Assembly (NCBI RefSeq): GCF_001570605.1
Contig: NZ_BBXG01000005.1
Span: forward strand, 310,001 to 374,000
Direction of reading: 5' to 3'
Source of the DNA: Herbidospora cretacea
GTDB taxonomy: Bacteria > Actinomycetota > Actinomycetes > Streptosporangiales > Streptosporangiaceae
DNA length: 64,000 nucleotides
The position numbers and the translations under genes were made by a program. The first letter of the stretch is position 1, and every line of letters begins with the position of its first letter. A model generated the notes under the pieces. It was not told the DNA's origin. It made no database searches and saw only the letters and a list, made by a program, of their open reading frames with translations. Shown here piece by piece: positions 35,111-52,340 of this stretch.

Positions 35111-35746
35111 TCACGACATGCGAACGGTCGGCCCTCCAGAGGGTTCGGTCCAACGGGTGAGCAACTCCTCGTCGTGGGTGATGGCGAGGATGCCGGCGCC
35201 GGTCTCCTTCCGGTAGGTCTCCAGGCGGGCGACGAGGTGGGCCTGGGTGGAGGCGTCGAGCATGGTGGTCATCTCGTCGCAGATCACGTACCGGGGCTTC
35301 AGCGCGAGCGCGCGGGCAACGCAGGCGCGCTGAAGCTGGCCGTCGGAGACCTCGTGAGGGCGGCGGGTCAGCAGTTCGGGGGTGAGGCCCACGTCGTCGG
35401 TCAGGTCCTCGACCGGGCGGCCGGTGGCGTGGAAAGGCTCTTCGGCGATCTCGCGCAGGGTGAGCCGGGGGTCGACGGCGAGGCGGGGCTGCTGGAAGAT
35501 CAGCGCGACCCGGGTGCGCAGGTCGCGGGCGGCCCGGTGGCGCCAGCGGTGGATCTCGGTCCCGTCCATGCTGAGGCTGCCCGCGTCGGGGCGTAGCATC
35601 AGGGCGAGCACTCGGGCCAGGGTCGACTTGCCGCAGCCGCTCGGCCCGGCCAGCCCGGTGACGACGCCGGGCACCACTTCCAGGTCGGCACCGCGTAGCA
35701 CCCGCTGCCTGCCGTAGGCGACGGTGATGCCGTCAGCGCGCAACAT
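35111..35746 (-). CDS. nikE: NikE-like nickel/peptide ABC ATPase
   Basis: The 211-residue ATPase starts at ATG 35746 (GGAG 5 nt upstream); a longer open frame overlaps NikD and was rejected. Walker A GPSGCGKSTL lies near residue 35, a signature-like VSDGQLQRACVARAL near 125 (VSDGQ in place of LSGGQ), and Walker B PRYVICDEMTTMLD near 148. It energises the nickel importer. The protein is short compared with most Nik/Opp ATPases because it lacks the C-terminal oligopeptide-type extension; NikD next door keeps it. Confidence 0.85.
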   Translation of the reverse strand: MLRADGITVAYGRQRVLRGADLEVVPGVVTGLAGPSGCGKSTLARVLALMLRPDAGSLSMDGTEIHRWRHRAARDLRTRVALIFQQPRLAVDPRLTLREIAEEPFHATGRPVEDLTDDVGLTPELLTRRPHEVSDGQLQRACVARALALKPRYVICDEMTTMLDASTQAHLVARLETYRKETGAGILAITHDEELLTRWTEPSGGPTVRMS

Positions 35747-37519: not shown

Positions 37520-38502
37520 CAGCTCACCCCCAGGACCCGCACACGCGGATCGGCGATCACATAGGCGCTGTCGGCGATCAGGTTGCCGATGACCACGGCG
37601 AGCGTGGCCAGCAGAGTGAGCGCCGCCAGCAGCGGGAAGTCCGCGGCGAGTGCGGCCTCTACGGATGCCGACGCCACCCCCGGCCAGGAGAACACCGTCT
37701 CGACCAGGATCGCGCCGGTCACCAGCTCGGGGATGCGTGCCCCGACGAGCGTGATGAACGGCAGTAGCGCCGAGCGCAGCGCGTGCCGCACCACCACAGT
37801 GCGTTCCCGCAGCCCACGCGCGCGAGCCCCGAGCACGAAGTCCTCCCGAAGCGTCGTGATCAGCGACTCACGCACGAACAGCAGCAACCAGGACGACTGC
37901 GAGAACGCCAGCACCGCCACCGGAAGCACCATGTGGTGCAACACGTCACCGAACTCCAGCGTCGTCGCGGCCGGGTCGGTCAGCCCGCCCGGCGGAAGCC
38001 ACTGCAATTTGACGGCGAAGATCCACATCACGATCAGCGCGGTCCAGAACACCGGCGCGGCCTCGTTGGCGTAGGCGGTGCCGGTGATCGTGCGGTCGAG
38101 CCACGAGTCGCGGCGCCAGGCGGCCAGCGCGCCCACGGCGAGGCTGACCACCAGCATGAGCACCAGGGCGCAGCCCGTGGCGAGCAGCGTCCAGCCGAAC
38201 CTTTCGCCGATCACCTCGATCACGGGCCGGTGCATGCTGCGCGACTCGCCAAGGTCGCCCTGCACCAGGTTGCCAAGCCAGGTGAAGTACTGCTCGGCGA
38301 CCGGCTTGTCCAGGCCCCAGTTCTCGCGGATCTGGGCCGTGATCTCGGGGCTCGTCGTGAGCGCGCGGACCCCGAGATACTGCTTGACCGGGTCGAACGG
38401 TGACGCCTTGGCCAGCGCGAACATGCCCAAGGTGACGGCGAACAGCAGCGGCACGGTGAACGCCAGCCGCCAGAGCGCCATCCGGGCGAGCGCCCGGGTC
38501 AT
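37519..38502 (-). CDS. nikB: NikB-like nickel ABC permease
   Basis: The protein has 327 residues from ATG 38502, which overlaps the NikA stop. It has about six membrane segments and the DppB/NikB landmarks: an N-terminal helix, LVQGDLGESRSMHRPVIEVI, and the EAA loop ARGLRERTVVVRHALRSALL. A longer frame starting at 38589 lies inside NikA and was rejected. It is the partner permease of NikC. Confidence 0.88.
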   Translation of the reverse strand: MTRALARMALWRLAFTVPLLFAVTLGMFALAKASPFDPVKQYLGVRALTTSPEITAQIRENWGLDKPVAEQYFTWLGNLVQGDLGESRSMHRPVIEVIGERFGWTLLATGCALVLMLVVSLAVGALAAWRRDSWLDRTITGTAYANEAAPVFWTALIVMWIFAVKLQWLPPGGLTDPAATTLEFGDVLHHMVLPVAVLAFSQSSWLLLFVRESLITTLREDFVLGARARGLRERTVVVRHALRSALLPFITLVGARIPELVTGAILVETVFSWPGVASASVEAALAADFPLLAALTLLATLAVVIGNLIADSAYVIADPRVRVLGVS

Positions 38503-40097
38503 GCGACCGGCTTCCACTCGGCGATGTTGCGGAACAGGCCACCGGTCTCGTGCTCGTGCGGCTCGACGGAGGGGGCGATCCCGGTCCACTGGCCGCGCAC
38601 CACGTAGACGTGCTTGAGGTAGACGAGGTAGGCCCAGGCGGCGTCGTCGCTGATGCGCTGCTGGAAGGCGTCGTAGGTCTGCTTGCGGACGGCGGGGTCG
38701 GCCTCCTCGCGGCCCTTGTCGAGCAGCGCATCGACCTCGGGGACCTTGTAGAAGCCCGGGTTGAAGAAACCCTGACCGGCGAGGGTCGAGTGGAACAGCT
38801 CATAGTTGGTGTAGTCGGGGTCGTAGGGGGCGCCGTAGCCCATGACCAAGGCGTCCTTGCTCATGCGCGGCTCGATCGCGTCCCAGTCCAGACCGGCGAG
38901 CTCAATGTCGATGCCGACCTTCTTGGCGTCGGAGGCCACGGCCAGGCCGAGGTCCTTTCGCAGCGCGTCGCCCGCCGGGTACATCAGGGTGAAGCTCGCC
39001 CGGGTGCCGTCCTTGACCCGGACGCCGTCGTCACCGACCTTCCAGCCGGCCTCGTCGAGAACCTTGGTGGCCTGCGCCTGGTCAGGCGCGGGAGACCCGG
39101 CGATGGCCGCGTTGTACCAGGTGGTGCCGGGCGCGATCGGGCCATAGGCGGGTTCGCCCGCACCGGCGAGGATGGTGTCGACCATCGCCTGGCGGTCGAG
39201 GGCCAGGTTGACCGCCTTGCGGATCGCCAGGTCACCGGTGACCGGCTGGCCGAAGGGGAACATGACGCCCCGATAGTCGGCGCTGTCGACCTTGTGGACC
39301 GTCAGGCCCTGCTGGCCGTCGAAGCGCGCGGCGGCCTTGGGCGGCAGCACGGTGGCGTCAAATTCCCCGGCGGCCATCCGGGTGGCGCGTACGTTGTCGT
39401 CACCGGCGTAGGCGACCACCAGGTTCTTGATCGCGGGTGCGCCGCCCCAGTACGTCGGGTTGGCCTTCACGACGAGCTTGTCGCCGGGCGTCCAGGACAC
39501 GAAGCTGTAGGGCCCGGTGCCGACCGGCTTGGTGTTGAACGGCGCGCTCTCCAGGCTCTGCCCGTCGAGCAGCTTCTTCGGCACGATGCCCAGCGTGGCC
39601 CGCTGCAGGATCGCGGCGTACGGGTACTTGAGGTGGAACACCACGGTCGAGGCGTCGGGCGCGTCCACCGACTCGATCGCCGCGAAGTCGCCGCGGATGC
39701 TGGAGTTGTTCTTCTCGTCCATGACGGCCTGGTAGGTGTAAGCCACGTCCGCGCTGGTCAGCGGGGTTCCGTCGTGGAACTTGACGTCCTTGCGCAATGT
39801 GAAGGTGACCGTCTCACCGTCGGTCGCGGGCATCGCGTCCGCCAGCGCGGGCTTGAGCGAGAGATCGGCGTTCCGGCTGAGCAGCCCGTCGAACATGAGC
39901 CCACCGCCGTCGACTGCGTAACCCAGAACGGGGTTCAGGGTGGCGGGCTCGGAGGGGATCCCGAGGACGAACGTGTCGTCCGCCGAACCACTCGACGAGG
40001 TCTGGGGAACCGTCGGCGCGGAGCAAGCACCGAGGGCCAGCGAGGCAATTAGGACGAGCGGAGCGAGACGGGCGAACCTGACACGAAAGGGCTTCAC
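38499..40097 (-). CDS. nikA: NikA-like substrate-binding lipoprotein
   Basis: The 532-residue SBP_bac_5-family protein has a lipoprotein signal (LIASLALGACS, acylated Cys at residue 25). The body has the peptide/nickel-binding family landmarks RKDVKFHDGTPLTSADVAYT and KLVVKANPTYWGGAPAIKNL. It captures nickel, probably as a chelate, outside the membrane and delivers it to NikBC. Start is GTG 40097; the ribosome site is weak. The promoter region carries a strong Nur box at 40128-40144. The family also includes peptide binders; nickel is favoured because of the Nur box and neighbours. Confidence 0.85.
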   Translation of the reverse strand: MKPFRVRFARLAPLVLIASLALGACSAPTVPQTSSSGSADDTFVLGIPSEPATLNPVLGYAVDGGGLMFDGLLSRNADLSLKPALADAMPATDGETVTFTLRKDVKFHDGTPLTSADVAYTYQAVMDEKNNSSIRGDFAAIESVDAPDASTVVFHLKYPYAAILQRATLGIVPKKLLDGQSLESAPFNTKPVGTGPYSFVSWTPGDKLVVKANPTYWGGAPAIKNLVVAYAGDDNVRATRMAAGEFDATVLPPKAAARFDGQQGLTVHKVDSADYRGVMFPFGQPVTGDLAIRKAVNLALDRQAMVDTILAGAGEPAYGPIAPGTTWYNAAIAGSPAPDQAQATKVLDEAGWKVGDDGVRVKDGTRASFTLMYPAGDALRKDLGLAVASDAKKVGIDIELAGLDWDAIEPRMSKDALVMGYGAPYDPDYTNYELFHSTLAGQGFFNPGFYKVPEVDALLDKGREEADPAVRKQTYDAFQQRISDDAAWAYLVYLKHVYVVRGQWTGIAPSVEPHEHETGGLFRNIAEWKPVA

Positions 40098-40127: not shown

Positions 40128-40144
40128 TTGCAAGTCTGTCGCAA
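40128..40144 (-). promoter_or_regulatory. Nur box at nikABCDE
   Basis: TTGCAA-GTCTG-TCGCAA matches the Nur operator (TTGCAA-N5-TTGCAA, known from Streptomyces) in 11 of 12 fixed positions, 31 bp upstream of the nikA start. Nickel-bound Nur should repress the importer here. Confidence 0.8.
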
Positions 40145-40263: not shown

Positions 40264-40680
40264 TCAGGCGGCGGAACACTGGTGGCAGCGGCCGAGAAGC
40301 AGCTGACCTGCCTGGTTCAGGGTGAACCGCCGTCCGGTCGCCAGGTCGGCGGCGGTGCGGTCCAGGTCGCCGGCGGGGATCTCCAGCAACGTGCCGCAGG
40401 GTTGGCAGATGAGGTGATGGTGCGGGGTTATGGCCAGGCCATAGAGCAACTCCCCCGCCCACTCGATGCAGTGCAGCACGCCTGATTCGGTCATCGCCGT
40501 GACGTTCCGGTAGACGCTCGACGCGTTGATGGTCGGCCGTACGGCAGCCGCCAGCTGGGCCAGCGTCGACACGCTGTGGTGTGTGTTCGTCCGTTCCAGA
40601 ATCGTCAGGATGGCCATCCGCGCCCCGGTCCGGCGCAGTCCTCGATCGGCCAGCATCTGGTCGGTCTCGATGCGGTCCAC
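40264..40680 (-). CDS. nur: Fur-family nickel-responsive regulator (Nur)
   Basis: The 138-residue protein has a winged helix (DRGLRRTGARMAILTILERT, then INASSVYRNVTAMTESGV), the His-rich metal/dimer segment ITPHHHLICQPCGTLLEI and a C-terminal CHQC, giving the two CxxC pairs of the structural zinc site. GTG 40680 aligns the N-terminus with Streptomyces Nur; ATG 40656 is an alternative. Of the Fur group (Fur, Zur, Nur, CatR, PerR) Nur is chosen because nikA, sodF and this gene itself carry Nur-type operators. Its own operator lies just upstream, implying autoregulation. Confidence 0.82.
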   Translation of the reverse strand: MDRIETDQMLADRGLRRTGARMAILTILERTNTHHSVSTLAQLAAAVRPTINASSVYRNVTAMTESGVLHCIEWAGELLYGLAITPHHHLICQPCGTLLEIPAGDLDRTAADLATGRRFTLNQAGQLLLGRCHQCSAA

Positions 40681-40706
40681 CTCCCTCAGTTGCGATAGAT
40701 ATGCTA

Positions 40707-40723
40707 TTGCGAGCTCTTTGCAA
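40707..40723. promoter_or_regulatory. Nur box between nur and the MucR-like gene
   Basis: TTGCGA-GCTCT-TTGCAA (one mismatch to the operator) lies 27 bp from the nur start and 12 bp from the MucR-like start, so it can control both divergent promoters. A further TTGCGA half-site at 40690-40695 lies on the nur side. Confidence 0.78.
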
Positions 40724-40735
40724 CTGGAGGTCGAG

Positions 40736-41539
40736 ATGGACGGCGACGTCCACGGGCGCATCGGTGAACTCGCCTGCGACGAGGTGACCGGCGAGGTGCA
40801 GTGCCACCTGTGCGGGCGGTCCTTCCGCGCCCTGGGCAGCCACATCCGGGTCCACGATCTGACTGCCGACGCCTACCGGGAGGCTTTCGGCCTGTTCGCG
40901 ACCAAGGCACTCACCTCCCAAGAGCTGTCGGAGACCCGCCGTGACCGCCAGCAGCGGCTGTACCGGCGCTCTCCGGCCACCCGTTCCAACCTCGGAACGG
41001 GCCAGAAACTGGCCCGATCTGGAGAGCTCAACACTCTGACCAGGCGAGACAGTCCACAACGTCGCACCTCCCAGTTGAGGGAACTGAAAGACGGGCGCGC
41101 CACCCGCTCACGCACCACGCAAGAGCGGCTCCGCACCGCGCTCGCCGACGCCGGTTTCCCCGACAGTGCCGCCGGGCTGCGCACGCTGTACGTCGACAGG
41201 CAGACCAGCATGGAGAACCTCGCGGCCCTGCTCGGCGTCAGCCGCGTCACCCTGCGCAACGCCCTGCTGGCCGCCGACATCCCGTTGCGCGCCATCGGAG
41301 TGAACACCGACACGGGACGACGCTCGCGGATCGCCTCCAACATCGCGCGCGCGGCCGCACTTGTCGGAACCACCGACCTGCACCAATGGCTACACGAGCG
41401 CCGCTCGCAAGGGGCGAGTCTCCAGCAGCTCGCGACCGAGCTGAACCGCAGTGTGCCGTGGGTGAAGGACCGGCTCTCGGAGCGGAGTGATCATGAGGGC
41501 CGCGCGCGGTCGAGCAGACCGGCCGTACCTCCGGGCTGA
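40736..41539 (+). CDS. MucR/Ros-type zinc-finger regulator
   Basis: The 267-residue protein has an N-terminal Ros/MucR-like finger: VQCHLCGRSFRALGSHIRVH (Cys-x2-Cys...His-x3-His) followed by DLTADAYREAFGL, the family signature. Residues ~160-190 and 215-250 contain two further HTH-like segments (NLAALLGVSRVTLRNALLAA and SLQQLATELNRSVPWVKDRL), suggesting extra DNA-binding modules. MucR-type proteins are rare outside proteobacteria and phages. RBS GGAGG is 5 nt upstream of ATG 40736, directly behind the Nur box. It is probably a second-level regulator of nickel starvation genes. Confidence 0.7.
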   Translation: MDGDVHGRIGELACDEVTGEVQCHLCGRSFRALGSHIRVHDLTADAYREAFGLFATKALTSQELSETRRDRQQRLYRRSPATRSNLGTGQKLARSGELNTLTRRDSPQRRTSQLRELKDGRATRSRTTQERLRTALADAGFPDSAAGLRTLYVDRQTSMENLAALLGVSRVTLRNALLAADIPLRAIGVNTDTGRRSRIASNIARAAALVGTTDLHQWLHERRSQGASLQQLATELNRSVPWVKDRLSERSDHEGRARSSRPAVPPG

Positions 41540-41658: not shown

Positions 41659-42258
41659 CTAGGCGCGCGCCGCGTCGAAGCGCGCGATGACGTCGTTCCA
41701 GTTGATGAGCGACCAGAGCTTCTCGACGTAGTCAGGCCGGACGTTCTTGTACTGCAGGTAGTAGGCGTGCTCCCAGGCGTCGAACACCAGCAGCGGGGTC
41801 GAGCTCATGCCGACGTTGCCGTGGTGGTCGTAGACCTGCTCGACGATCAGACGACGGCCCAGGGGCTCCCACGCCAGCACGCCCCAGCCGGAGCCCTGCA
41901 CGGTCGCCGTGGCGGTCGTGAGCTGCTTCTGGAAAGCCTCGAAGGAGCCGAAATGTTCGACGATCGAGTCGCCGAGTTCGCCGTCGGGGCGGTCGCCGCC
42001 GTCCGGGGAGAGGTTCTGCCAGAAGATCGTGTGCAGGACGTGGCCCGACAGGTTGAACGCGTAGGTCTTCTCCAGGCCGACCAGGCCGCTGAAGTCGCCC
42101 TTGTCACGGACTTCGGCGAGCCGGTCGAGCGTGTCGTTGGCGCCCTTCACGTAGGCGGCGTGGTGCTTGCTGTGGTGCAGCTCCAGGATCTCGCCCGTGA
42201 TCGCCGGCTCCAGCGCCGCGTAGTCGTAGGGCATATCCGGAAGGGTGTACTGGCTCAC
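41659..42258 (-). CDS. sodF: Iron superoxide dismutase
   Basis: The protein has 199 residues from GTG 42258 (AAGGAGGA 7 nt upstream). It shows [20 protein letters not shown] with the two first metal His (including [10 protein letters not shown]), [11 protein letters not shown], and the second metal pair in [20 protein letters not shown] (Asp and His). It dismutates superoxide in the cytoplasm. In Streptomyces the FeSOD gene is repressed by Nur when nickel is ample, since a nickel SOD takes over; the Nur box at 42275-42291 shows the same wiring here. Confidence 0.93.
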
Positions 42259-42274: not shown

Positions 42275-42291
42275 TTGCACATTGATCGCAA
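42275..42291 (-). promoter_or_regulatory. Nur box at sodF
   Basis: TTGCAC-ATTGA-TCGCAA matches the Nur operator with two mismatches, 17 bp upstream of the sodF start and next to its ribosome site. Confidence 0.75.
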
Positions 42292-42335: not shown

Positions 42336-42854
42336 TCAGCGTGGTCCCATCCGCATGATCAGCCGTTGGGCGCCATCTGGATGGAGGGCGACGGTCTGCC
42401 AGCCGCGCTGCCGGTAGAGGCCGATCGCGGCCTTCGCGCGGGCGTTGGTGATCAGCCAGCGCGGGCCCGGGGCGGGCGAGTTGATCACAGCGTCATGCAG
42501 GGCGCCGCCCACACCCCAGCCACGGTGGCCGGGGGTCACACACAGTTCCCGCAGGATGAAGTCGGCGCCGGTCGGCTGATGGAGCAGGGCGGCCAGGGAC
42601 GAACAGCGGTGGCCGTACCCGAACCCGATCAGCTCCTCCCCGGCGAAGGCGGCGGCAAGGGTGAAGCCGGGCCGGGAGCTGTCGGCCAACAGGCGGGAGG
42701 CCACGGTGCGGGCAACCGCGAGAGGCTCGTTCCAGGGCGGCCGGGTGAACACGGCCCCGCCCACGTCGGCGACGGATGGCAGCAGCGACCACAGGTCCGA
42801 CGACTTCACGTAGGCGATGACTGGGCGATGAGGCTCTGGGTGACCAGCGACCAC
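42336..42854 (-). CDS. Nur-linked GNAT acetyltransferase
   Basis: The protein has 172 residues from GTG 42854 (GGAGAAG just upstream; GTG 42893 is an alternative but lies against the Nur box). Motif A is clear: [20 protein letters not shown] (acetyl-CoA loop HRGWGVGG, near residue 105), followed by [20 protein letters not shown]. It is transcribed divergently from the RiPP operon under shared Nur boxes. It could acetylate the mature peptide (tailoring or self-protection), which is inference from wiring only. Confidence 0.75.
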
Positions 42855-42895
42855 GTCTTCTCCAGGTGACCGGGCGGGAGGCTTGCGCCTCACTA

Positions 42896-42912
42896 ATGCG
42901 AGTCTTTCGCAA
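42896..42912. promoter_or_regulatory. Nur box on the GNAT side of the divergent promoter
   Basis: ATGCGA-GTCTT-TCGCAA keeps the TGC/GCA cores at the correct N5 spacing, 42 bp upstream of the GNAT start and 109 bp from the RiPP precursor start. Confidence 0.65.
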
Positions 42913-42963
42913 TAACATAATTCAGGCAACAAGGGGTTGACCCACCCGAGGTGCCGACTTAGG

Positions 42964-42980
42964 TTGCGAATCGTTCGCAC
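42964..42980. promoter_or_regulatory. Nur box on the RiPP side of the divergent promoter
   Basis: TTGCGA-ATCGT-TCGCAC keeps the palindromic core at N5 spacing, followed immediately by another TTGCGA half-site (42981-42986). It lies 41 bp upstream of the precursor gene. Confidence 0.72.
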
Positions 42981-43020
42981 TTGCGAATGAACGGCAAGCA
43001 ATCTCGAAGGAGGACGGCCC

Positions 43021-43128
43021 ATGGCACATCCCACGTTCGAAGAGCTGGCCGAGTCGAGCGTGTGCATCCGCTCGCACACGCCCGCCGTGGACGAGGCGTT
43101 CACCTGGCACGAGGACGACGCCGAGTAG
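43021..43128 (+). CDS. Candidate RiPP precursor peptide
   Basis: The 35-residue ORF has a strong ribosome site (GAAGGAGG, 43006-43013) and is the first gene of the Nur-controlled operon. The N-terminal half (MAHPTFEELAESSV) looks like a short amphipathic leader. The rest (CIRSHTPAVDEAFTWHEDD, then AE) offers one Cys, Ser/Thr residues for azoline formation, two His and an acidic end for metal binding. A perfect hairpin follows, which would give extra precursor transcript. A YcaO enzyme with leader-binding region is next. The peptide resembles no precursor that I know; the cleavage site is not apparent. Confidence 0.72.
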   Translation: MAHPTFEELAESSVCIRSHTPAVDEAFTWHEDDAE

Positions 43129-43134
43129 TCCCCC

Positions 43135-43166
43135 GCGGGAGGCCGAGCTCGCAAGCGGCCTCCCGC
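43135..43166 (+). terminator. Intercistronic hairpin after the precursor gene
   Basis: GCGGGAGGCCG (43135-43145) pairs perfectly with CGGCCTCCCGC (43156-43166) across a 10-nt loop, 6 bp after the precursor stop. It probably attenuates read-through into the YcaO gene and so sets precursor stoichiometry. Confidence 0.78.
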
Positions 43167-43192
43167 ACCCCCGGCCACGGAGGATTCGAACG

Positions 43193-45106
43193 TTGTTACG
43201 TCTCACCCCTGGGCACCACCTGCATCCAGGCCCCGACGGGGTGTGGCGGCACCACGCTCCCGACGGCCGGGTGTCCCTCGTACGCGCCCCGGACGAGGTG
43301 ATGCGCGCTCTGGCCCGAGAGGAACTGCCCGACGACGAGGAGTTGCTCCGCGCCTTCGAGGAGCGCGGGCTGCTGGTCGCGGCGGCTCAGGACGACCCGT
43401 CCGGGATCGTGCATCTCGTCGGCGACGGGCCCATCGCGGATCAGGTGGAGAAGCTCCTCAATCCCCAGGTCAAGGTGGTGCGCGGGCCTCTCGGCGGCGC
43501 TCCCGACATGGTGGTGGCCTGCGCGGGCTGGTTGCCGGACGCCGAGTGGCTGGCGCTCGACCGGTGGTGCCTGGAGCGGGGCATCCTGTGGCATCGCTGC
43601 CACGCGGAGGGGCTGCGGTTCTTCGCGGGGCCGTGCGGGGTGCCCTACGCCGACGTCCGGGCGCGACGGCTGGCCGCCGCCGGGCTACCCGGGGAGCTCG
43701 TCGCTCACTGGGCCTATCTGGATTCCGGGGAGACGCCGCCGGTGCCGTGGCCCTCGGCGGGTGGGGTCGCGGTCGTGGCCGGGCTGATCGTCGCCGACGT
43801 GCTGGCCGTCTTGTCGGGGCGGACCGTCCCGGCCTGCCAGTACGAGTTCGACCCAGCCAACAACGAGATGATCCACCATCCGGTGCTGTCTTTGGCCGAA
43901 CCCTCCGGGACCTCTCTCGTCGACCCTCGCCTCGGGGTGATCACGAAGGTGGTGCGTGAGCCGAGTGCCGTGCCGTCGTGTGTGATCTACCGGGCGTTCG
44001 TGGCCGACACCCGGACCTTCGCGCCCTGGCCGGCCGATCGGGTCGCCGGAGGCGCGGCGCTCGAGGATCCGGCGCGGGCTCGGGCCGCCGCGATCGGGGA
44101 GGCGGTCGAGCGGTACTGCGGGAACGCGCCGCCGCAGGAGACCGTCCGGGCGGCTTATGTCGATCTGCCCGGTGCGGTCGATCCGCTGGAGTTCGCGCTC
44201 TACTCCCCCGATCAGTACGCGGCCAAAGGATTTCCCTTCGTTCCGATGACCCGCGAACTGGTGCAGGACTGGTCGCTCGGCCGGGATCTCGGCACTGGGG
44301 ATTCTGTGTACGTGCCCAGTGCGCTCGTGCTGCTCAACCGCAGGCGGGAGCCGTACACGAACTTTCAGATGAGCGCGGGGATCGCGGCGGGAAAGGGACG
44401 CGCGGCGGCCGAGAAGTCGGCGCTGAACGAGCTCTACGAGCGGGACGCGCTGACCACCTGGTGGATGCGCGGCGGCCCGGCCGGAGAGGTCAGGCTCGAC
44501 GGACCCGACGAGCTGGTCGGTGCGGTCGCCGCCGCGAAGGCCACGGGGCTCTCGGTCACGCTGCTCCGGATTCCCTCCGACTACGGGCGCGTCGTGGTCG
44601 GCGCGTTCGTCGAGGACGCCTTCCAGCGCATCGTCGGGTTCGGCGCAGCGTGCCGGGCGACGGCGGGTGAGGCGGCGGCGAAGGCGTTCACCGAGGCCTG
44701 CGTGTCCTACACCAACAGCATCGGGCTGCTCGACCCGGCGACCTACGAGACCGCCGATCACCCCTACCGGCCCTTTCGGAAGGACTGCGCCTACCGCGAC
44801 GACTTCCGCGCCGACTGGCACGACCTCACAGACCTGGAGCTGAACCTGCAGCTCTACCTCGACCCACGCATGCAGGGCGAGAACCTCGACCGGCTCCGGC
44901 ATCCGATGCAGATCACCTTGCCTGAACCGCTGCCCGAACCCCGTGCGATCTCCGTCGACCTGACCACGCCGGACATCCTCGGCACCGGTCTGCGGGTGGT
45001 GCGGGTGCTCGTTCCTGGCCTGTACGGCAACGCCCCGGCAGCCTTTCCTCTGCTCGGCGGCACCCGGCTGAGGCCGGTCGTCCTCGATCCTCTCCCTCTC
45101 GCCTAG
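43193..45106 (+). CDS. YcaO cyclodehydratase with N-terminal leader-binding/E1-like region
   Basis: The 637-residue protein starts at TTG 43193 (GGAGG 9 nt upstream). Residues ~1-225 resemble the truncated E1-like, precursor-recognising part of fused azoline synthases (SGIVHLVGDGPIADQVEKLL). Residues ~260-637 are a YcaO domain with ATP/Mg residues in AAIGEAVERYCG (near 300), EKSALNELYERDAL (near 408) and AGEAAAKAFTEACV (near 490). It ends in DPLPLA, a variant of the Pro-x-Pro tail of azoline-forming YcaOs. It should convert Cys/Ser/Thr of the precursor to azolines (or form a thioamide-type change) using ATP. Upstream hairpin limits its expression relative to the peptide. Confidence 0.87.
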   Translation: MLRLTPGHHLHPGPDGVWRHHAPDGRVSLVRAPDEVMRALAREELPDDEELLRAFEERGLLVAAAQDDPSGIVHLVGDGPIADQVEKLLNPQVKVVRGPLGGAPDMVVACAGWLPDAEWLALDRWCLERGILWHRCHAEGLRFFAGPCGVPYADVRARRLAAAGLPGELVAHWAYLDSGETPPVPWPSAGGVAVVAGLIVADVLAVLSGRTVPACQYEFDPANNEMIHHPVLSLAEPSGTSLVDPRLGVITKVVREPSAVPSCVIYRAFVADTRTFAPWPADRVAGGAALEDPARARAAAIGEAVERYCGNAPPQETVRAAYVDLPGAVDPLEFALYSPDQYAAKGFPFVPMTRELVQDWSLGRDLGTGDSVYVPSALVLLNRRREPYTNFQMSAGIAAGKGRAAAEKSALNELYERDALTTWWMRGGPAGEVRLDGPDELVGAVAAAKATGLSVTLLRIPSDYGRVVVGAFVEDAFQRIVGFGAACRATAGEAAAKAFTEACVSYTNSIGLLDPATYETADHPYRPFRKDCAYRDDFRADWHDLTDLELNLQLYLDPRMQGENLDRLRHPMQITLPEPLPEPRAISVDLTTPDILGTGLRVVRVLVPGLYGNAPAAFPLLGGTRLRPVVLDPLPLA

Positions 45107-45116
45107 GAGCTGTGAC

Positions 45117-46121
45117 ATGCGTGTGGGCCTGGCCCTCGGCTACCACGGAGAACCGATCTCGGAGCTGCTGCCCCTGGTCGAGCACGCCGACCGCATCGGC
45201 GTCGACTCGGTGTGGAGCGTCGAGGAGTACGGCGCGGACGGGGTGACGATCCTCGCCTACCTGGCCGCGAAGACCGAGAACATCAAGCTCGGCACCGGCA
45301 TCCTCCAGCTCGCCGGGCGCACCCCGGCCAACACCGCGATGACCGCGCTGACGCTCGACATCCTGTCGGAGGGCCGCCTGCTGCTCGGGCTGGGTGTGTC
45401 GGTGCCGTGGATCGTCGAGGGCTGGCACGGTTCGGAGTTCGGCAAGCCGGTCAAGCGGATGCGCGAGTACGTCGAGATCCTGCGCAAGGCCGTCGCCTGC
45501 GACGAGCGGGTGTCCTTCGAGGGCGAGTACTACCGCCTGCCCTTCTCCGACAGGTCCCGGCCGGTCAAGGCGCTGCTCGACCCTGTCCGGACCGTCATCC
45601 CCACCTACGTCGCCGGGATCGGGCCCGGCATGACCCGGCTGGCCGGGGAGGTCGCCGACGGGTGGCTGCCCGGTTTCTACTCCCCGGAGCGGGAGAAGGT
45701 CATGACCGCTCCGCTGGACGAGGGTCTCGGGCGGTCGGGCCGATCCGCGATCGACATCACCGTCATCACCCACGGTGCCATCACGAATGACGTGGCCAAG
45801 GCGCGGGACGAGCTGCGCCCTCTCTATGCCGCCTACATCGGCCCGGACATCCCGGGCGTCCGCAACACGTACTACGAGCTCGCCTGCGGGCTCGGGTTCG
45901 AGAAAGAAGCACATGTGATCCGCAAACACCACCGCGAGAAGAGGCGGGCCGAGGCCGTCGCCGCCGTCCCGGACCAGTTACTCGACGAGGTCGCCCTGCT
46001 CGGGCCGGCCGAGCGCATCCGTGACCGGGTGGCGGCCTGGAAGGAGTCGCGGGTGACCACGCTCGCGCTCATCACCCGCGACAAGGCCCTGCTCGACGTC
46101 GTGTGCGAGGCCGCGGCGTGA
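45117..46121 (+). CDS. LLM-class (F420/FMN) oxidoreductase
   Basis: The 334-residue TIM-barrel protein of the luciferase-like monooxygenase family shows ALGYHGEPISELLPLVEHAD near the N-terminus, IKLGTGILQLAGRTPANTAM (cofactor-binding strand), GRLLLGLGVSVPWIVEGWHG, and TYVAGIGPGMTRLAGEVADG. Actinomycete members often use F420. In this operon it is a good candidate for oxidising azolines to azoles or otherwise tailoring the YcaO product, the role played by an FMN dehydrogenase in classical azole pathways. RBS AGGAG is 8 nt upstream; its stop overlaps the next start (GTGA). Confidence 0.85.
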   Translation: MRVGLALGYHGEPISELLPLVEHADRIGVDSVWSVEEYGADGVTILAYLAAKTENIKLGTGILQLAGRTPANTAMTALTLDILSEGRLLLGLGVSVPWIVEGWHGSEFGKPVKRMREYVEILRKAVACDERVSFEGEYYRLPFSDRSRPVKALLDPVRTVIPTYVAGIGPGMTRLAGEVADGWLPGFYSPEREKVMTAPLDEGLGRSGRSAIDITVITHGAITNDVAKARDELRPLYAAYIGPDIPGVRNTYYELACGLGFEKEAHVIRKHHREKRRAEAVAAVPDQLLDEVALLGPAERIRDRVAAWKESRVTTLALITRDKALLDVVCEAAA

Positions 46122-47107
46122 GACGGCTCCTCGTTCTGGCCCTCCTGCTGACCGCGTGCGGGCAGACCACCCCGGCCGCCGCACCGGTCGAGCAGAAGGC
46201 CATCACGGTGCAGAACTGCGGACGGACGCTGACCTTCGACCAGCCACCAGCCAAGGTCGTTACCGGCTATCAGCCCTCGCTGGAAACCCTGCTCGCCCTC
46301 GGCCTCCAGGACAAGATCGTCGGGCGGACCGCGTTCGAGGAGAACGGCCCTGACGGCTTCCTGCCTGGCCAGAAGGCCTTCTATGACGCCATTCCGCAGA
46401 TCTCCGAGACGATCATGCTGCCGCAGAAGGAGGTCATGCTCGCCCAGGGCGCCGACTTCGTCATCGACAACGGGCAGAGCAGCTTCGACCCCGCCGGGGG
46501 CTACGCGACCGTCGACGAGCTCCAGACCGCCGGGGCGCCGGTGTTCGTGCTGGGGAACTGGTGCAGCCCCGAGGAGACGCTGAAGTCGACCGTCGAGCAG
46601 ACCTTCATCGACCTGCGGAATCTCGGGATCGTCTTCGGCGTCCAGGACCGGGCCGAGAAGCTGATCGCCGACCTCCAGGCCCAGCTCGCCGATGTCGAGA
46701 AGCGGGTGGCGGGGCGGCCGAAGGTGAAGGTCCTGGCCACCGACGGCGGCACCGGGCCTGTCACCGCCTACGGCGGCGCGGGCCTGATGAACCAGATGAT
46801 CGCGAAGGCCGGCGGCGAGAACGTCCTGGCCGCCACCCAGGCCGACTATTCCGAGTTCAGCGTCGAGCAGGTCGCCGCCGCGAACCCGGAGGCACTGTTG
46901 GTGATCGACTATGTGGTGTACGACGGCAAGGCGGCCCCCACGGCGGACAAGAAAGCCGCCGACGTGCTCGGGGTGGCGAAGAACAGCCCGGCAGCGACCG
47001 AGAAGCGCGTGTTGCCGATCCCCGCAGCGGCGGCGCATCCGGGGTACCGGAACATCCTGGCCATCGTCGAGATGGCCAAGTTCCTGCACCCAGACGCTTT
47101 CGTCTGA
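46118..47107 (+). CDS. FecB/BtuF-type metallophore-binding lipoprotein
   Basis: The protein has 329 residues from GTG 46118, coupled to the oxidoreductase. A short signal ends in LLLTACG (lipobox, acylated Cys near residue 13). The body is a periplasmic_binding_2 fold: NCGRTLTFDQPPAKVVTGYQ, then PSLETLLALGLQDKIVGRTA. This family binds ferric siderophores, haem or cobalamin. Here it should bind the metal-loaded product of the operon. No Met or Ala ATG fits the lipoprotein signal better than GTG 46118. Confidence 0.87.
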   Translation: MRRLLVLALLLTACGQTTPAAAPVEQKAITVQNCGRTLTFDQPPAKVVTGYQPSLETLLALGLQDKIVGRTAFEENGPDGFLPGQKAFYDAIPQISETIMLPQKEVMLAQGADFVIDNGQSSFDPAGGYATVDELQTAGAPVFVLGNWCSPEETLKSTVEQTFIDLRNLGIVFGVQDRAEKLIADLQAQLADVEKRVAGRPKVKVLATDGGTGPVTAYGGAGLMNQMIAKAGGENVLAATQADYSEFSVEQVAAANPEALLVIDYVVYDGKAAPTADKKAADVLGVAKNSPAATEKRVLPIPAAAAHPGYRNILAIVEMAKFLHPDAFV

Positions 47108-47154
47108 TGAAACCGATCATCGACAGGCCGACAAACGACGAGGCCGCCTTATGA
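47107..47154 (+). CDS. 15-residue micro-ORF linking binding protein and permease
   Basis: ATG 47107 shares its A with the TGA of the binding-protein gene, and the micro-ORF (MKPIIDRPTNDEAAL) ends in a TGA that overlaps the ATG of the permease (ATGA). It thus bridges exactly the gap between two coupled genes. It has no ribosome site of its own and may serve as a translation relay. A functional micropeptide is possible but unsupported. Confidence 0.45.
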   Translation: MKPIIDRPTNDEAAL

Positions 47155-48215
47155 CGGTGGCGCAGAAGGCGGCGAGCCAGCGCGTCTCCGTCTTCCGACG
47201 CAGGTCGACGTTCGGTCTGGTCCTCGGCCTGCTGGCCGCAGCCGTCGTGTTCTCCACCTGGCTGGCCGTCAGTATCGGCGCGGTTCAGGTCGGGCTGGCC
47301 GAGTGCTGGGGCATCGTCGCCAACCGGCTGTTCCCCGGGTCGGTCACCCCGTTCTGGACCCCGGTCCAGGAGCAGATCGTCTGGGACTTCCGGCTCCCCC
47401 GCGCGCTGCTGGCACTCCTGGTCGGGGCCGGGCTGTCGGTGGTCGGCGCGGTCCTCCAGGCGCTCGTGCGCAACCCGCTCGCCGACCCGTTCCTGCTCGG
47501 CATCTCCTCGGGCGCCTCGCTCGGCGCGGTGGCGGTGTTCGTGCTCGGGGCGTCCGCCCTAGGCGGGCTGTCGTTGTCGGCCGCCGCGTTCGGCGGGGCG
47601 CTGCTGGCGCTTGTTCTCGTGTACGTGCTGGCGCAACGCGGCGGCAGGCTCATCCCGTCGCGGCTGGTCCTGGCGGGGGTCGCGCTGCACTTCCTGTTCC
47701 AGGCGATCTATTCGTACATCCTCCAGCAGGCCCAGAGCGGCCGGGCCGCCCAGCAGGTGCTGTTCTGGCTGCTCGGATCGCTCGGCGGCGCGCGGTGGGA
47801 GATGCTCCCGATCCCGGCGATCGTGCTGGGTGCCGGCGTCGCCTACCTCCTGGTCCAGCACCGGCCCCTCAACGCCCTGGCCGCCGGGGAGGACACCGCG
47901 ACCTCGCTCGGCGTGAATGTGGGCGCCTTCCGGCTCCAGATGTTCGTGCTGACCTCGCTGCCCGTCGGCGTAATGGTCGCCACCAGCGGGGCCATCGCCT
48001 TCGTCGGCCTGATGGTGCCGCACGCCGCCCGGCTGCTCGTCGGGGCCGACCACCGCCGGGTGTTGCCGGTGTCGGCCCTGCTGGGAGCGGCGTTCCTCCA
48101 GCTCGTGGACATCGCGGCTCGGACTGTGGACGCGCCGCAGGAGCTCGCGCTGACCATCGTCACCGCCGTCTTCGGCGCGCCGTTCTTTCTGTGGCTGCTG
48201 CGGAGGCGGGCATGA
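47151..48215 (+). CDS. FecCD-type metallophore ABC permease
   Basis: The 354-residue protein has about ten membrane segments and the FecCD landmarks VWDFRLPRALLALLVGAGLS, VRNPLADPFLLGISSGASLG and AFVGLMVPHAARLLVGADHR. It forms the membrane channel of a siderophore/cobalamin-type importer. Only one permease gene is present, so it should act as a homodimer. ATG 47151 overlaps the micro-ORF stop; its own stop overlaps the ATPase start (ATGA). Confidence 0.92.
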   Translation: MTVAQKAASQRVSVFRRRSTFGLVLGLLAAAVVFSTWLAVSIGAVQVGLAECWGIVANRLFPGSVTPFWTPVQEQIVWDFRLPRALLALLVGAGLSVVGAVLQALVRNPLADPFLLGISSGASLGAVAVFVLGASALGGLSLSAAAFGGALLALVLVYVLAQRGGRLIPSRLVLAGVALHFLFQAIYSYILQQAQSGRAAQQVLFWLLGSLGGARWEMLPIPAIVLGAGVAYLLVQHRPLNALAAGEDTATSLGVNVGAFRLQMFVLTSLPVGVMVATSGAIAFVGLMVPHAARLLVGADHRRVLPVSALLGAAFLQLVDIAARTVDAPQELALTIVTAVFGAPFFLWLLRRRA

Positions 48216-48952
48216 GGCTGGTCCTGGACGGAGTGGCCGTCACCATCGACGGCACGCCGATCGTGCGCGAGGCCGACCTCATCGTCGAGCCGGGGAGTTT
48301 CGCGGCCTTGGTCGGCCCCAACGGCTGCGGGAAGTCGACGCTCCTGCGGACGATCTACCGGGCACTACGCCCGGCGGCCGGACTCATCTCGCTCAACGAC
48401 GAGGACCTCCGCAAGCTCAAGCACCGCGAGACCGCCCGCCGGATCGCGGTCGTCGCCCAGGAGTACCCCGCCGAACTCGACTTCACCGTCGAGGACGTCG
48501 TGCTCATGGGCCGCACCCCCCACAAACGCCCGCTCTCCCGCACCACCGGCGAGGACCTGCAACGCTGCGCCGAGGCGCTCGAACGGGTCTCGGCGACCGG
48601 CCTGGCGCGCAGGTCCTTCGTCACCCTGTCCGGCGGCGAGAAACAGCGGGTCCTGATCGCCCGCGCCCTCGCTCAGGAGAGCAGCCTGCTGCTGCTCGAC
48701 GAGCCGACCAACCATCTCGACATCCGCCATCAGCTCGACGTCCTGCACCTGGTCCGCGACCTGGGCCTGACCACGCTCGCCGCGCTGCACGACCTCAACC
48801 ACGCCCTGGAGTTCGCCGACCGGATCTACGTCATGGACACCGGCCGCGTCGTCGCCGACGAGCTCACCCCCGAGGTCATCGCGCGGGTCTTCGGCGTGCG
48901 CGCGGTGTCTCGCACCCAGTACGTCTTCGAACGGCTCAAGGAGGAGACATGA
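48212..48952 (+). CDS. FecE-type metallophore ABC ATPase
   Basis: The 246-residue ATPase has Walker A GPNGCGKSTLLRTIYRAL (near residue 34), signature LSGGEKQRVLIARAL and Walker B LLLLDEPTNHLDIRHQ, with the D-loop/H-loop LAALHDLNHALEFADRIYVM. It powers re-uptake of the chelate through the FecCD-type permease. Coupled by 4-bp overlaps on both sides. Confidence 0.93.
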   Translation: MRLVLDGVAVTIDGTPIVREADLIVEPGSFAALVGPNGCGKSTLLRTIYRALRPAAGLISLNDEDLRKLKHRETARRIAVVAQEYPAELDFTVEDVVLMGRTPHKRPLSRTTGEDLQRCAEALERVSATGLARRSFVTLSGGEKQRVLIARALAQESSLLLLDEPTNHLDIRHQLDVLHLVRDLGLTTLAALHDLNHALEFADRIYVMDTGRVVADELTPEVIARVFGVRAVSRTQYVFERLKEET

Positions 48953-50646
48953 TCGCGCGGCTGCTGTCCCCGGCGGTGCGCCTCAGGCTGGCCGCGCTGG
49001 TGGCGATCCTGCTGACCATCACGGCCACCTACGTGTTCCAGGGCGTGCTGATCGCCCACTCCCTGGCGGCGATCTTCGCCGGAGACGGCTTCCTGTGGCC
49101 GGTCATCGGGATCGCTCTCCTTCAGGTGGTGCGAAGCTGCGCACTAGCCGTGCGGGAGACGGCTTCGCTACGGACATCCGGGCTGGTCAAGGCCGAGCTC
49201 CGGGAACGCCTGGTGGCCAAGCTGCTGGTCCTCGGGCCTGGGTGGGCTCAGCGAGGTCGTACCGGAGCAACACAGACCTCGCTCGTCGATGGCATCGAGA
49301 CCGCCGACGCCTTCGTGGGCCGGTTCCTGCCGCAGGTGATCGCGGCGATCATCGGCGCGGTCGCGGTGACGGCGTACCTGTTCACCCTCGACATCGTCGT
49401 CGGGCTGGTGGTGCTGGGCTGCTCGATCCTGCTGCCGGTGCTGCCGCTGGTGTCCGAGACGGTGCTGCGCAGCCGCAACAAGGCGTGGTTCACCGCCTAC
49501 AAGGCCCTGTACTCCGAGAACCTCGACGCCCTCCAGGGCATGGTGACCCTGAAGGCGTTCAACGCCAGCCGCCGCCGGGGAACCGAACTCGCCACCCTGG
49601 CCGAGAAGTTCTGCACCGACTCCATCCGGCTCATGGCCGTGGTCGTCCTGTACGTCGGCGGTGTCGCCTTCGTCATCGCGACCGGCACCGCCGTGGCCAT
49701 CGGGGTAGGCGCCTACCGGCTGACGGCCGGAGAGATCACGGTCACCGAACTGCTGCTCATCCTGATGCTGACCGCCGAGTGCTTCCGCCCGCTGCGCGAC
49801 CTGGAGGCGGCCTACCACTCCAGCTACAACGCCATCCCGTCGCTGCGCGGAGTGCTGGAGGTGCTCGACGAACCCGTACAGGAAGCGGGAACCGACTCCG
49901 TCACCGGCCCCGCGCGGGTGACCTTCACCGACGTCACCTTCACCTATCGAGACCGCACCAGGCCCGCCCTAAGCGACTTCTCACTTGACGTCGCCCCGGG
50001 CGAACGGGTGGCGCTGGTCGGCAGATCGGGGGCCGGCAAGACCACGGTCGCCGCGCTGCTGCTGCGCTTCTTCGACACCAGCCAGGGGCGCATCTCCGTG
50101 AACGGCGTCGACATCCGTGATCTGCCGCTCGACCAGTTGCGCTCACTGGTGGCCGTGGTCTCCCAGGACACCTACCTCTTCCACGGCACCGTCCGGCACA
50201 ACCTGGCCCTCGGCCGCCCCGACGCCACCGACGCGGAGATCACCGAAGCCGCCACCGCCGCCCAAGCCCACGAGTTCATCACCGCCCTCCCTCAGGGCTA
50301 CGACACGATCGTCGGCGAACGCGGCCTGAAGCTGTCAGGTGGGGAACGCCAACGCATCGCCATCGCCCGCGCCCTGCTGAAAGACGCCCCGATCCTCGTG
50401 CTCGACGAGGCCACCTCCAGCGTCGACGCCGCCAACGAGGCCGCCATCCAGCTAGCGCTCGACACCCTGACCGGCGGCCGGACGACGCTGATGATCGCCC
50501 ACCGCCTGTCGACCGTGCGGAACGCCGACCGCGTGATCGTGATGTCCCAAGGCGAGGTGGTCGAGTCGGGCCACCACGACGACCTGCTCACCCAACGTGG
50601 TGCTTACGCCCGCTTGGTGGCCGCACAGGAAGGAGCAGCCCGATGA
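48949..50646 (+). CDS. ABC exporter half-transporter 1
   Basis: The 565-residue protein has an N-terminal transmembrane domain (about residues 10-290) and an ATPase domain with Walker A GRSGAGKTTVAALLLRFF (near residue 360), signature LSGGERQRIAIARALL and Walker B ILVLDEATSSVD. It pairs with the next gene as a heterodimeric exporter of the CydDC/MsbA type. In RiPP operons such pumps secrete the mature peptide. No peptidase C39 domain is present, so leader removal must be by another protease. Confidence 0.92.
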   Translation: MIARLLSPAVRLRLAALVAILLTITATYVFQGVLIAHSLAAIFAGDGFLWPVIGIALLQVVRSCALAVRETASLRTSGLVKAELRERLVAKLLVLGPGWAQRGRTGATQTSLVDGIETADAFVGRFLPQVIAAIIGAVAVTAYLFTLDIVVGLVVLGCSILLPVLPLVSETVLRSRNKAWFTAYKALYSENLDALQGMVTLKAFNASRRRGTELATLAEKFCTDSIRLMAVVVLYVGGVAFVIATGTAVAIGVGAYRLTAGEITVTELLLILMLTAECFRPLRDLEAAYHSSYNAIPSLRGVLEVLDEPVQEAGTDSVTGPARVTFTDVTFTYRDRTRPALSDFSLDVAPGERVALVGRSGAGKTTVAALLLRFFDTSQGRISVNGVDIRDLPLDQLRSLVAVVSQDTYLFHGTVRHNLALGRPDATDAEITEAATAAQAHEFITALPQGYDTIVGERGLKLSGGERQRIAIARALLKDAPILVLDEATSSVDAANEAAIQLALDTLTGGRTTLMIAHRLSTVRNADRVIVMSQGEVVESGHHDDLLTQRGAYARLVAAQEGAAR

Positions 50647-52340
50647 CCAGGTTCCTGACTTTGATCGGCCGACACCGCACCCTGCTGATCTTCGCCATCC
50701 TGAGCGGCATCGCCCACCACCTGGTCGTCCTGGCCTCGGCCGGAACCGGCGCGTGGGTGGTCAGCCGAGCCATCACCGGCCAGGAGTTCACCGGCGGCCT
50801 GATCCTGCTCGGCGTGCTGCTGCCCTTCGTGGGGATCACGCCGTGGCTGGAGTCCTACCTCGCCCACATGGCCGCCTTCCGGGTTCTCGCCGACATCCGA
50901 GGCAGGGTCTACGCCGCCTTCGAGCGATTGGCCCCCGGCTACCTGCTCGAACGCCGCTCCGGCGACCTCGGCGCGGCGGCCATCTCCGACGTCGAGCAGT
51001 TGGAGCTGTGGTTCGCCCACACGCTCAGCCCTCTGGTCAGCGCCGCGACCGTCCCGGTGGCCGCGCTGACCGCGCTCGGCACCTTCGACCCGACCCTCGC
51101 GGTGGCGCTGGCGCCCGCGTTGCTGTTGCTCGCGACGGTCCCGTCATGGCTGCGCCGCAAGGCCGAAGCCCAGGGCGTGGAACTGCGCGCCCAGATCGGC
51201 GAACTCAACGCCGAAGCCGTCGACACCCTCCAGGGCCTGCGCGAACTGGTCACCTTCGGCTCGACCCCCCGCTTCGACGTCCTGGAGAAGAAGCTCCTGG
51301 GGGCCAAGCTCGCCCACGCCCGCCGCTCCGGCCTCGAACACGGCGTCACCAACGCCCTGACCGTCTTCGGCCTGCTCGCGGTGCTGGTCACCGCCGCGCT
51401 CCTGGTCAGCGGGGGCTCCCTGGACCCGGCGCTGTTCCCGGTCGCGGTGGTCCTGGCCGCGACCACGTTCGCCCCGGTCATCGCGGTCACCGACGTGGCC
51501 CGCGACATCAACCAGGTGGTTGCCGCCGGTCGGCGCATCATGACGATCCTGGACACCGAACCCCCGGTCCGCGACCGCGTCACCGAATTCTCCGAGGCCG
51601 TCACTCCGAGGGTGGTCTTCGACCAGGTCCGTTTCCGGTACGCCCCCGCGCTCCCCGACGCCGTCACCGACGCCACCTTCGACGTCGAGCCGGGCGAGAC
51701 CGTCGCCCTGGTCGGCCACTCGGGGGCCGGCAAGTCGACCTGCGCCAGCCTGCTCATGCGCTTCTGGGACGTCACCGACGGCGCGATCACCATCGGCGGC
51801 CACGACATCCGTGACCTCCCGCAAGACGACCTGCGCAAGCTGATCACCCTGGTCCCGCAGGACGTCTACCTGTTCAACATCCCCCTGAAGGACAACATCC
51901 GCCTGGGCCGCCCCGAGGCCACCGACGCCGAAGTCGTCGCCGCGGCGAAGGCGGCCCTGGCCGACGAGTTCATCTCAGGCCTGCCCGACGGCTACGACAC
52001 GGTCCCCGGCGAACTCGGCGCCCGGTTGTCGGGAGGCCAGCGTCAGCGCATCGCCATCGCCCGCGCCCTGCTCAAGGACGCCCCGATCCTCATCATGGAC
52101 GAGGCCGTCTCCAACCTCGACGCCGAGAGCGAGCAGGAGGTCACCCAGGCGACGACCCAGGTCAGAGCGGGTCGAACCACGTTGGTCATCGCCCACCGCC
52201 TGTCCACGATCCGCACCGCCGACCGCGTGGTCATGCTGGGAGGCGGCAGGGTGATCGCCACCGGCACCCACGACGGCCTGCTCGCCGACAGCTCCGACTA
52301 TCGGAGCCTGCTGGCCAGTCAGGTGGCGGGCGTGGACTGA
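50643..52340 (+). CDS. ABC exporter half-transporter 2
   Basis: The 565-residue protein has a six-helix transmembrane domain, Walker A GHSGAGKSTCASLLMRFW (near residue 359), signature LSGGQRQRIAIARALL and Walker B ILIMDEAVSNLDAESE. The Glu-Ala-Val after Walker B is slightly unusual. Start ATG 50643 overlaps the partner's stop. It is the last gene of the Nur-linked operon and overlaps the convergent CGNR gene by 22 bp. Confidence 0.92.
   Translation: MTRFLTLIGRHRTLLIFAILSGIAHHLVVLASAGTGAWVVSRAITGQEFTGGLILLGVLLPFVGITPWLESYLAHMAAFRVLADIRGRVYAAFERLAPGYLLERRSGDLGAAAISDVEQLELWFAHTLSPLVSAATVPVAALTALGTFDPTLAVALAPALLLLATVPSWLRRKAEAQGVELRAQIGELNAEAVDTLQGLRELVTFGSTPRFDVLEKKLLGAKLAHARRSGLEHGVTNALTVFGLLAVLVTAALLVSGGSLDPALFPVAVVLAATTFAPVIAVTDVARDINQVVAAGRRIMTILDTEPPVRDRVTEFSEAVTPRVVFDQVRFRYAPALPDAVTDATFDVEPGETVALVGHSGAGKSTCASLLMRFWDVTDGAITIGGHDIRDLPQDDLRKLITLVPQDVYLFNIPLKDNIRLGRPEATDAEVVAAAKAALADEFISGLPDGYDTVPGELGARLSGGQRQRIAIARALLKDAPILIMDEAVSNLDAESEQEVTQATTQVRAGRTTLVIAHRLSTIRTADRVVMLGGGRVIATGTHDGLLADSSDYRSLLASQVAGVD

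Follow-up and report, generated by a model that had tools for sequence, protein, structure and literature searches.

Streptamidine is an HLSATH peptide carrying an amidine, and its ami cluster comprises fecBCDE, a precursor gene, amiB, a hydrolase gene, a YcaO gene, a flavin dehydrogenase gene and two ABC transporter genes (PMC8442711; this and the other papers are cited from excerpts). Clusters of this type were reported in over 230 species, and the authors suspected a role in metal import; that hypothesis failed in their assays (PMC8442711). In Streptomyces coelicolor, sodF and nikABCDE are repressed by Nur (PMC7055735), and the Nur box has been published as tTGCaa-N5-ttGCAA (PMC3919588). 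Here we compare with these systems a single operon (43021-52340) in a 64,000-nucleotide stretch of the soil actinomycete Herbidospora cretacea (the window, to which coordinates refer unless a locus is named). It encodes a precursor peptide, a YcaO protein, a luciferase-like (LLM) oxidoreductase, FecB, FecCD, FecE and two exporter halves. We read it, with a probability of about 0.57, as a Nur-repressed system for a ribosomally made nickel metallophore. The features of the operon are as follows.

43021-43128, plus strand: precursor peptide, 35 amino acids, open reading frame conserved in relatives
43135-43166, plus strand: RNA hairpin in the gap between precursor and YcaO genes, stable by minimum free energy (MFE) folding
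43193-45106, plus strand: YcaO protein, 637 amino acids, PF02624 (3.5e-46), C-terminus ending in DPLPLA
45117-46121, plus strand: LLM (luciferase-like, F420/FMN) oxidoreductase, PF00296; TIGR03559 at 3.9e-94, under that model's cut-off
46118-47107, plus strand: FecB-type binding protein with a lipoprotein-like signal, PF01497
47151-48215, plus strand: FecCD permease, PF01032 (1.2e-92)
48212-48952, plus strand: FecE-type ATPase, family profile matches
48949-50646, plus strand: ABC exporter half, CydD/MsbA-like, PF00664 and PF00005
50643-52340, plus strand: ABC exporter half, MsbA/CydC-like, PF00664 and PF00005

The ends of neighbouring genes are mostly close or overlapping; the GTG start codon of FecB, for example, overlaps the LLM stop. 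Every gene that a first-pass annotation of this DNA had named in the operon was found at or near its position, and the 35-residue precursor candidate is accepted as a gene because its reading frame is conserved in relatives.

A conserved precursor family preceded by Nur boxes

Nineteen intact genes of the window's taxonomic order, including the precursor, form a family in which MAH..F and HTPAVD..F.W are invariant. Related loci and genomes carry L and G numbers, respectively, and the sister-locus set consists of 20 regions chosen from 69 matching genomes. Two degenerate copies (L084, L085), a fragment (L087) and partial matches (G134, G444, G576) were dropped from the family counts. Because the 19 genes are themselves the source of profile A2, their own matches to it are by construction; the only further ones are the degenerate copies, the fragment and G134.

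A Nur box with at most one mismatch lies within 150 bp upstream of 18 of the 19 precursor genes and is perfect in 14 (8/8 in clade 1 and 6/11 in clade 2 of the family). Control 300-bp windows from the same loci, with true sites included, held perfect boxes in 37 of 2528 cases and one-mismatch boxes in 115 of 2528. Using the full consensus TTGCAA-N5-TTGCAA with up to two mismatches, sites precede 15/19 precursors, against 48/8489 controls (true sites included) and 0/14 of the ALV-type precursor genes described below; with up to three mismatches the counts are 18/19 and 79/8489. A census of perfect boxes covered the window together with 26 loci (L009-L011, L042-L061, L093-L095). Thirty-two of the 34 boxes fall within 400 bp before matches to nikA, sodF, Fur, GNAT, precursor, FecB or FhuF, and the two outside such positions are L043:6864 and L050:6548. 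Nur-type boxes stand upstream of FecB too in L049, L056 and L060.

A nickel island left of the operon

The operon adjoins an island of genes associated with nickel, whose features, together with the boxes and the promoter region of the operon, are the following.

35111-40097, minus strand: nikABCDE-type nickel importer operon (longest open reading frames, starts provisional)
38499-40097, minus strand: NikA, best model TIGR02294 (2.9e-57, below its cut-off)
37519-38589, minus strand: NikB, general ABC transporter models (ABC_tran and BPD_transp_1 for the NikB-E set)
36662-37519, minus strand: NikC, same general models
35733-36779, minus strand: NikD, same general models
35111-36067, minus strand: NikE, same general models
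40128-40144, no strand: perfect Nur box upstream of nikA (motif scan)
40264-40683, minus strand: Fur-family regulator, PF01475 (1.8e-18)
40690-40723, no strand: two Nur-type boxes between the Fur-family and ROS/MUCR genes (40690 with one mismatch, 40707 perfect)
40736-41539, plus strand: ROS/MUCR-type regulator, PF05443 (7e-10), divergent from the Fur-family gene
41659-42258, minus strand: sodF, Fe/Mn superoxide dismutase (SOD), GTG start, PF02777 (1.3e-33)
42275-42291, no strand: perfect Nur box upstream of sodF (motif scan)
42336-42890, minus strand: GNAT-family gene, start uncertain, PF00583 (7.7e-5)
42896-42912, no strand: Nur-type box with one mismatch, perfect at the equivalent place in L009 and L010
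42937-42965, plus strand: promoter-like TTGACC - 17 bp - TAGGTT, read by eye
42964-42997, no strand: two abutting Nur-type boxes (42964 with one mismatch, 42981 perfect), ending 23 bp upstream of the precursor start

The window holds four perfect TTGC-N9-GCAA boxes where 0.34 are expected, and none of 100 shuffles reached four. They lie upstream of nikA, the Fur-family gene, sodF and the precursor; nikABCDE, the Fur-family gene and sodF, each with its perfect box, go beyond the gene list of the first-pass annotation. That annotation had counted two Nur-type operators between the GNAT gene and the operon, which are present, although the number is three (42896, 42964 and 42981). The -10 element of the promoter-like sequence overlaps the box at 42964. 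The stricter form TTGCRN7YGCAA occurs perfectly at only four places in the 8.28 Mb genome, three of them inside a 2.2-kb stretch of the island (40128, 40707 and 42275); the precursor's perfect box at 42981 fails this form. One-mismatch boxes are not enriched either in the window (14 versus 14.5 expected) or genome-wide (250 versus 894 for the reversed pattern), and weak sites were therefore counted only where conserved.

The genome has five Fur-family genes. The Nur ortholog lies on another contig (L089, 2.5e-55 to 3eyy, the S. coelicolor Nur), and a nickel SOD gene is also encoded. A Nur box at the operon promoter and a Nur protein in the genome are both features expected of a Nur regulon member. 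The Fur-family protein of the island was considered as Nur and rejected, being nearer to FurB (5.3e-12) than to 3eyy (1.8e-7). It could nevertheless be the protein that reads the boxes, sensing a metal other than nickel: its gene sits in the island with boxes upstream, its similarity to FurB (Zur) exceeds that to Nur, and relatives of it occur in L043 and L049. The boxes, however, fit the published Nur box (PMC3919588) and precede classical Nur targets in a genome that has a Nur ortholog, and the 22-kb loci L009-L011 keep the boxes while no relative of the island protein was found there. We regard control by the island protein as very improbable. Judged from these sequence comparisons, the operon is very probably under Nur control, as the first-pass annotation had proposed: it shares boxes with nikABCDE and sodF, and the boxes recur throughout the family. 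The same annotation had suggested looking for nik genes and Nur boxes beside related operons. The boxes were found as counted above, nik genes stand alongside in L045, where they are 81-89% identical to those of the window and adjoin the same precursor, and in 6/19 loci no more than 6 kb separates sodF from the precursor.

Some features of the island stand apart from this argument. The ROS/MUCR-type regulator is found here in an actinomycete, separated by two Nur-type boxes from the divergent Fur-family gene. Relatives of the GNAT gene are close to sodF in L009, L043, L044, L045, L049 and L095. L095 is a second Nur island, in Acrocarpospora macrocephala, that keeps nik genes, sodF, GNAT, boxes and FecBCDE and has only a fragment of the precursor; it is possibly a receiver-only state that takes up the chelator of others.

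Importer, exporter and the metal in question

The precursor is accompanied by the LLM gene and by YcaO in all 19 loci, with L045 keeping the N-terminal part of YcaO only. In L045 (395-2374) this part runs in frame into LLM; the catalytic half is gone, and the precursor and Nur boxes are kept. A complete set of FecB, FecCD and FecE is close to the precursor in 12 of the 19 loci (window, L009, L010, L011 and L043 in clade 1; L048, L049, L052, L056, L058, L059 and L060 in clade 2). The exporter is an ABC pair in 6/8 clade-1 loci, and a MatE gene follows LLM in 11/11 clade-2 loci (Pfam run on two).

A number of observations weigh against a nickel metallophore. The best site of L072 has two mismatches, the Fur-family gene inside the island is distinct from the Nur ortholog, and Cys15 is absent from some members in the 19-sequence alignment. 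The importer is incomplete or absent nearby in 7/19 loci, which weakens the re-uptake step in the genomes concerned: L042 and L047 have FecB alone, L044, L046 and L050 have none in the fetched stretch, L053 has none adjacent, and L045 meets the contig end. In the first six of these the importer may be located elsewhere, or lost. A FhuF-like gene, unexpected for a nickel chelator, directly precedes the precursor in 10/11 clade-2 loci (L046-L048, L050, L052, L053, L056, L058-L060; PF11575 confirmed in L056 and L058) and in 0/8 of clade 1. Finally, streptamidine showed no binding of Fe, Co, Cu, Mg, Mn, Ni or Zn, and its mutant had no phenotype on metal starvation (PMC8442711).

The streptamidine results and the seven loci without a complete importer close by would also fit a peptide that nickel starvation merely triggers, acting as a signal or as an antagonist of competitors, with FecBCDE importing another chelate or serving self-protection; the GNAT gene by the boxes could likewise serve protection. 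We consider this account unlikely, given the importer in 12/19 clusters, the boxes before FecB in L049, L056 and L060 and the occurrence of Fec genes in ALV clusters as well. The FhuF-like gene suits the reductive release of Fe(III), and thus speaks for iron and against a simple nickel reading; with FecBCDE being an iron-chelate family, the peptide might be a chelator of iron (or of cobalt or copper) that is merely placed under Nur. Set against this are the boxes common to nik and sodF, the lack of FhuF matches in all eight clade-1 loci and, in 24 sources, the absence of a site with 14/19 matches to an assumed IdeR consensus. A chelator of this kind is, in our judgement, distinctly improbable.

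Relationship to streptamidine and the ALV precursors

The operon resembles the ami cluster in its FecBCDE-type importer, YcaO, two ABC transporters and short precursor not rich in Ser/Thr/Cys, and its LLM enzyme may correspond to the ami flavin-dependent dehydrogenase amiE. A YcaO-domain protein adjoins the short precursor, as expected for the streptamidine family, and FEEL in the leader and V..(P/A)F.W in the follower recur in some precursors with an ALV motif. There are also differences. The ami cluster has four fec genes and the operon three (FecB, FecCD, FecE); HTPAVD is present in all 19 aligned precursors, in place of ALV motif A/B; and neither amiB (hypothetical) nor amiC (hydrolase) is in the operon, other families accounting for all proteins of 43021-52340. 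The YcaO here carries an extra N-terminal half, and Nur boxes are present. Strict membership in the streptamidine family, set against published descriptions, was thus rejected for want of the ALV motif, amiB and amiC. The first-pass annotation was aware of no described YcaO-modified nickelophore. The gene plan has a precedent in the streptamidine cluster; no YcaO nickelophore is named among the matches listed in the open-licence literature. Within the same scope, nothing connecting streptamidine with Zur or Nur was listed and no paper was found for the strings HTPAVD or FEWRED.

We collected 14 precursors with an ALV motif by a regular expression plus judgement by eye, so that others may be missed. 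Ten are from the 20 further-relative loci (L136-L140, L142, L147, L150, L151, L154), which represent 19 of 23 matching genomes plus G020, and four from sister loci (L051, L054, L055, L057); L141, L143-L146, L148, L149, L152, L153, L155, L061 and L096 have no accepted ALV precursor. By analogy of motif we take these precursors as kin of the streptamidine family. Some are multi-core, with LPALQGPGTNALVHTPF repeats, and their clusters also hold Fec genes. Nur boxes within 150 bp upstream are perfect in 0/14 and have one mismatch in 1/14.

The ALV genes are preceded by another operator type. For the Zur test, an initial consensus (TGAAAATNATTTTCA) was replaced by the motifs of PMC5472717. The actinobacterial znuA motif quoted there, TGaNAANNNTTNtCA, is found with up to two mismatches at 10/14 ALV genes versus 94/8489 control windows. 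It is also reached by 4/19 HTPAVD genes, because Zur and Nur palindromes resemble each other. A stricter Zur motif from chromatin immunoprecipitation (ChIP) gives weaker support at the same threshold (5/14 ALV genes, 240/8489 controls, 0/19 HTPAVD genes). In L051 the distance to the site is 150 bp counted from the assigned start and 33 bp counted from an in-frame ATG further upstream, and three of the four ALV genes without a Zur-like site (L138, L140, L142) have another palindrome, CGGAAATGGTTTCCG, at 36-40 bp. ALV-type precursors with Zur-like palindromes about 30-80 bp upstream, which are candidate ribosomal zinc metallophores, are located as follows.

L054:6519, L055:13727, L057:7893, L139:13640
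L147:13952, L150:12825, L151:6789, L154:12827

A second YcaO cluster of the same genome (L096, contig 32, 12000-31999) contains three YcaO genes, TfuA, FecBCD and two ABC exporters. A Fur-family gene there adjoins a ZnuA-like gene, Zur-like sites are at 17975 and 19670, and the cluster is a candidate thioamidated zinc system.

In a tree of 62 YcaO domains, in which long branches were flagged as unsure, the 18 HTPAVD rows form a single group (98/97). Its neighbour is a group of 11 ALV rows (99/98), joined to it at 100/99. These 11 rows represent one YcaO copy of the ALV clusters; ten second-copy rows sit further off, as do the single-YcaO rows L150, L151 and L154, whose gene plan is most ami-like. 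The FEEL leaders and V..(P/A)F.W followers of the HTPAVD precursors align with those of ALV precursors such as L137, whereas the middles differ, as do the operators; the change of core therefore accompanies a change of operator. An ALV core goes with a Zur-like box and an HTPAVD core with a Nur box, which suggests a joint change of metal by core and regulator.

YcaO protein, modification and transcript

The operon in all likelihood makes a modified RiPP (ribosomally synthesized and post-translationally modified peptide). The first-pass annotation had described a fused leader-binding/YcaO enzyme, of which the YcaO domain (PF02624) is confirmed and the leader-binding half is not: Pfam matches cover the YcaO part alone, residues 1-256 have no NCBIfam match at E values up to 10, and the AlphaFold model, made from four sequences, has a pLDDT (predicted local distance difference test) score of 38.9 and is unusable. 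A comparison of the YcaO sequence with the PDB gave two matches, both by chance.

Azolines or thioamides, the modifications expected in the first-pass annotation, are not supported. Thr20 is the sole Ser/Thr/Cys invariant across the 19 aligned precursors and Cys15 varies, in place of the Cys/Ser/Thr-rich core typical of thiazole/oxazole-modified microcins (TOMM); YcaO scores below the TIGR03604 (SagD-type TOMM) cut-off (204.5 versus 219.25 bits), and there is no TfuA partner among the operon proteins. An XXH-type nickel-binding N-terminus formed from (K/R)(S/A)H was considered and set aside; it would need a cleavage site and none is indicated in the data.

The region around the hairpin (43126-43192) folds with an MFE of -32.6 kcal/mol (z -2.81), equalled by 2 of 200 shuffles. 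The hairpin is a possible RNA processing or attenuation site, and it might make the short precursor message exceed the rest of the operon transcript. No peptidase domain is among the Pfam matches of the exporter half at 48949-50646.

Discussion

For a Nur-repressed nickel metallophore the following sequence of events may be proposed. When nickel is short, Nur would leave its promoter boxes, and nikABCDE, sodF and the operon would be turned on together, if repression works as in S. coelicolor. The peptide encoded at 43021-43128 would be modified by YcaO, with the LLM enzyme probably helping, as their co-conservation suggests, and trimmed by a protease encoded outside the operon. Going by the gene families, it would then be secreted through the two ABC halves and bind nickel outside, and FecB, FecCD and FecE would take the complex back. 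By analogy with streptamidine and the ALV precursors, the core would lie between the leader MAHxxFEE... and the follower AVDxxFxW, and read about (C/G)(I/V/L)(R/K)(S/A)H-T-P; candidate ligands are the invariant His and, in clade 1, additionally Cys. PF01032 and PF01497 are described as highly siderophore-specific among non-ribosomal peptide synthetase (NRPS) clusters (PMC12971057), and both are found in this cluster, to which that NRPS-based criterion is here extended.

More broadly, and tentatively, the odds falling somewhat short of even, the streptamidine superfamily could consist of ribosomal metallophores whose core and metalloregulator were switched together: Zur-like boxes with ALV cores for zinc, and Nur boxes with (C/G)(V/I/L)(K/R)(S/A)H-TPAVD for nickel. 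The window would then hold the first genetically anchored ribosomal nickelophore.

Should the peptide prove to carry nickel, it would represent a novel scavenging route for the metal. Genetically encoded peptides would join the few known nickel metallophores, and the Nur regulon would extend to secreted chelators. The locus may also help to explain the purpose of the widespread streptamidine-type peptides. Operators resembling those of two metal sensors track two precursor types (Nur at 18/19, Zur-like at 10/14), which is a reason to test nickel or zinc depletion specifically.

Methanobactin and the MNIO bufferins are, like the predicted product, ribosomal, modified, metal-related peptides; they involve copper and MNIO enzymes and no YcaO, whereas the operon has YcaO. 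Staphylopine and pseudopaline are opine metallophores that are exported, capture metal and are re-imported. The proposed plan of export, capture and re-import is alike, whereas the enzymes, the importer family and the non-ribosomal origin of the opines differ. To our knowledge, no described Nur regulon includes a RiPP. The island has in common with the S. coelicolor Nur regulon the Nur boxes upstream of sodF and nikABCDE (PMC3919588, PMC7055735), and differs from it in the addition of a RiPP/importer operon, a GNAT gene and a second Fur-family gene.

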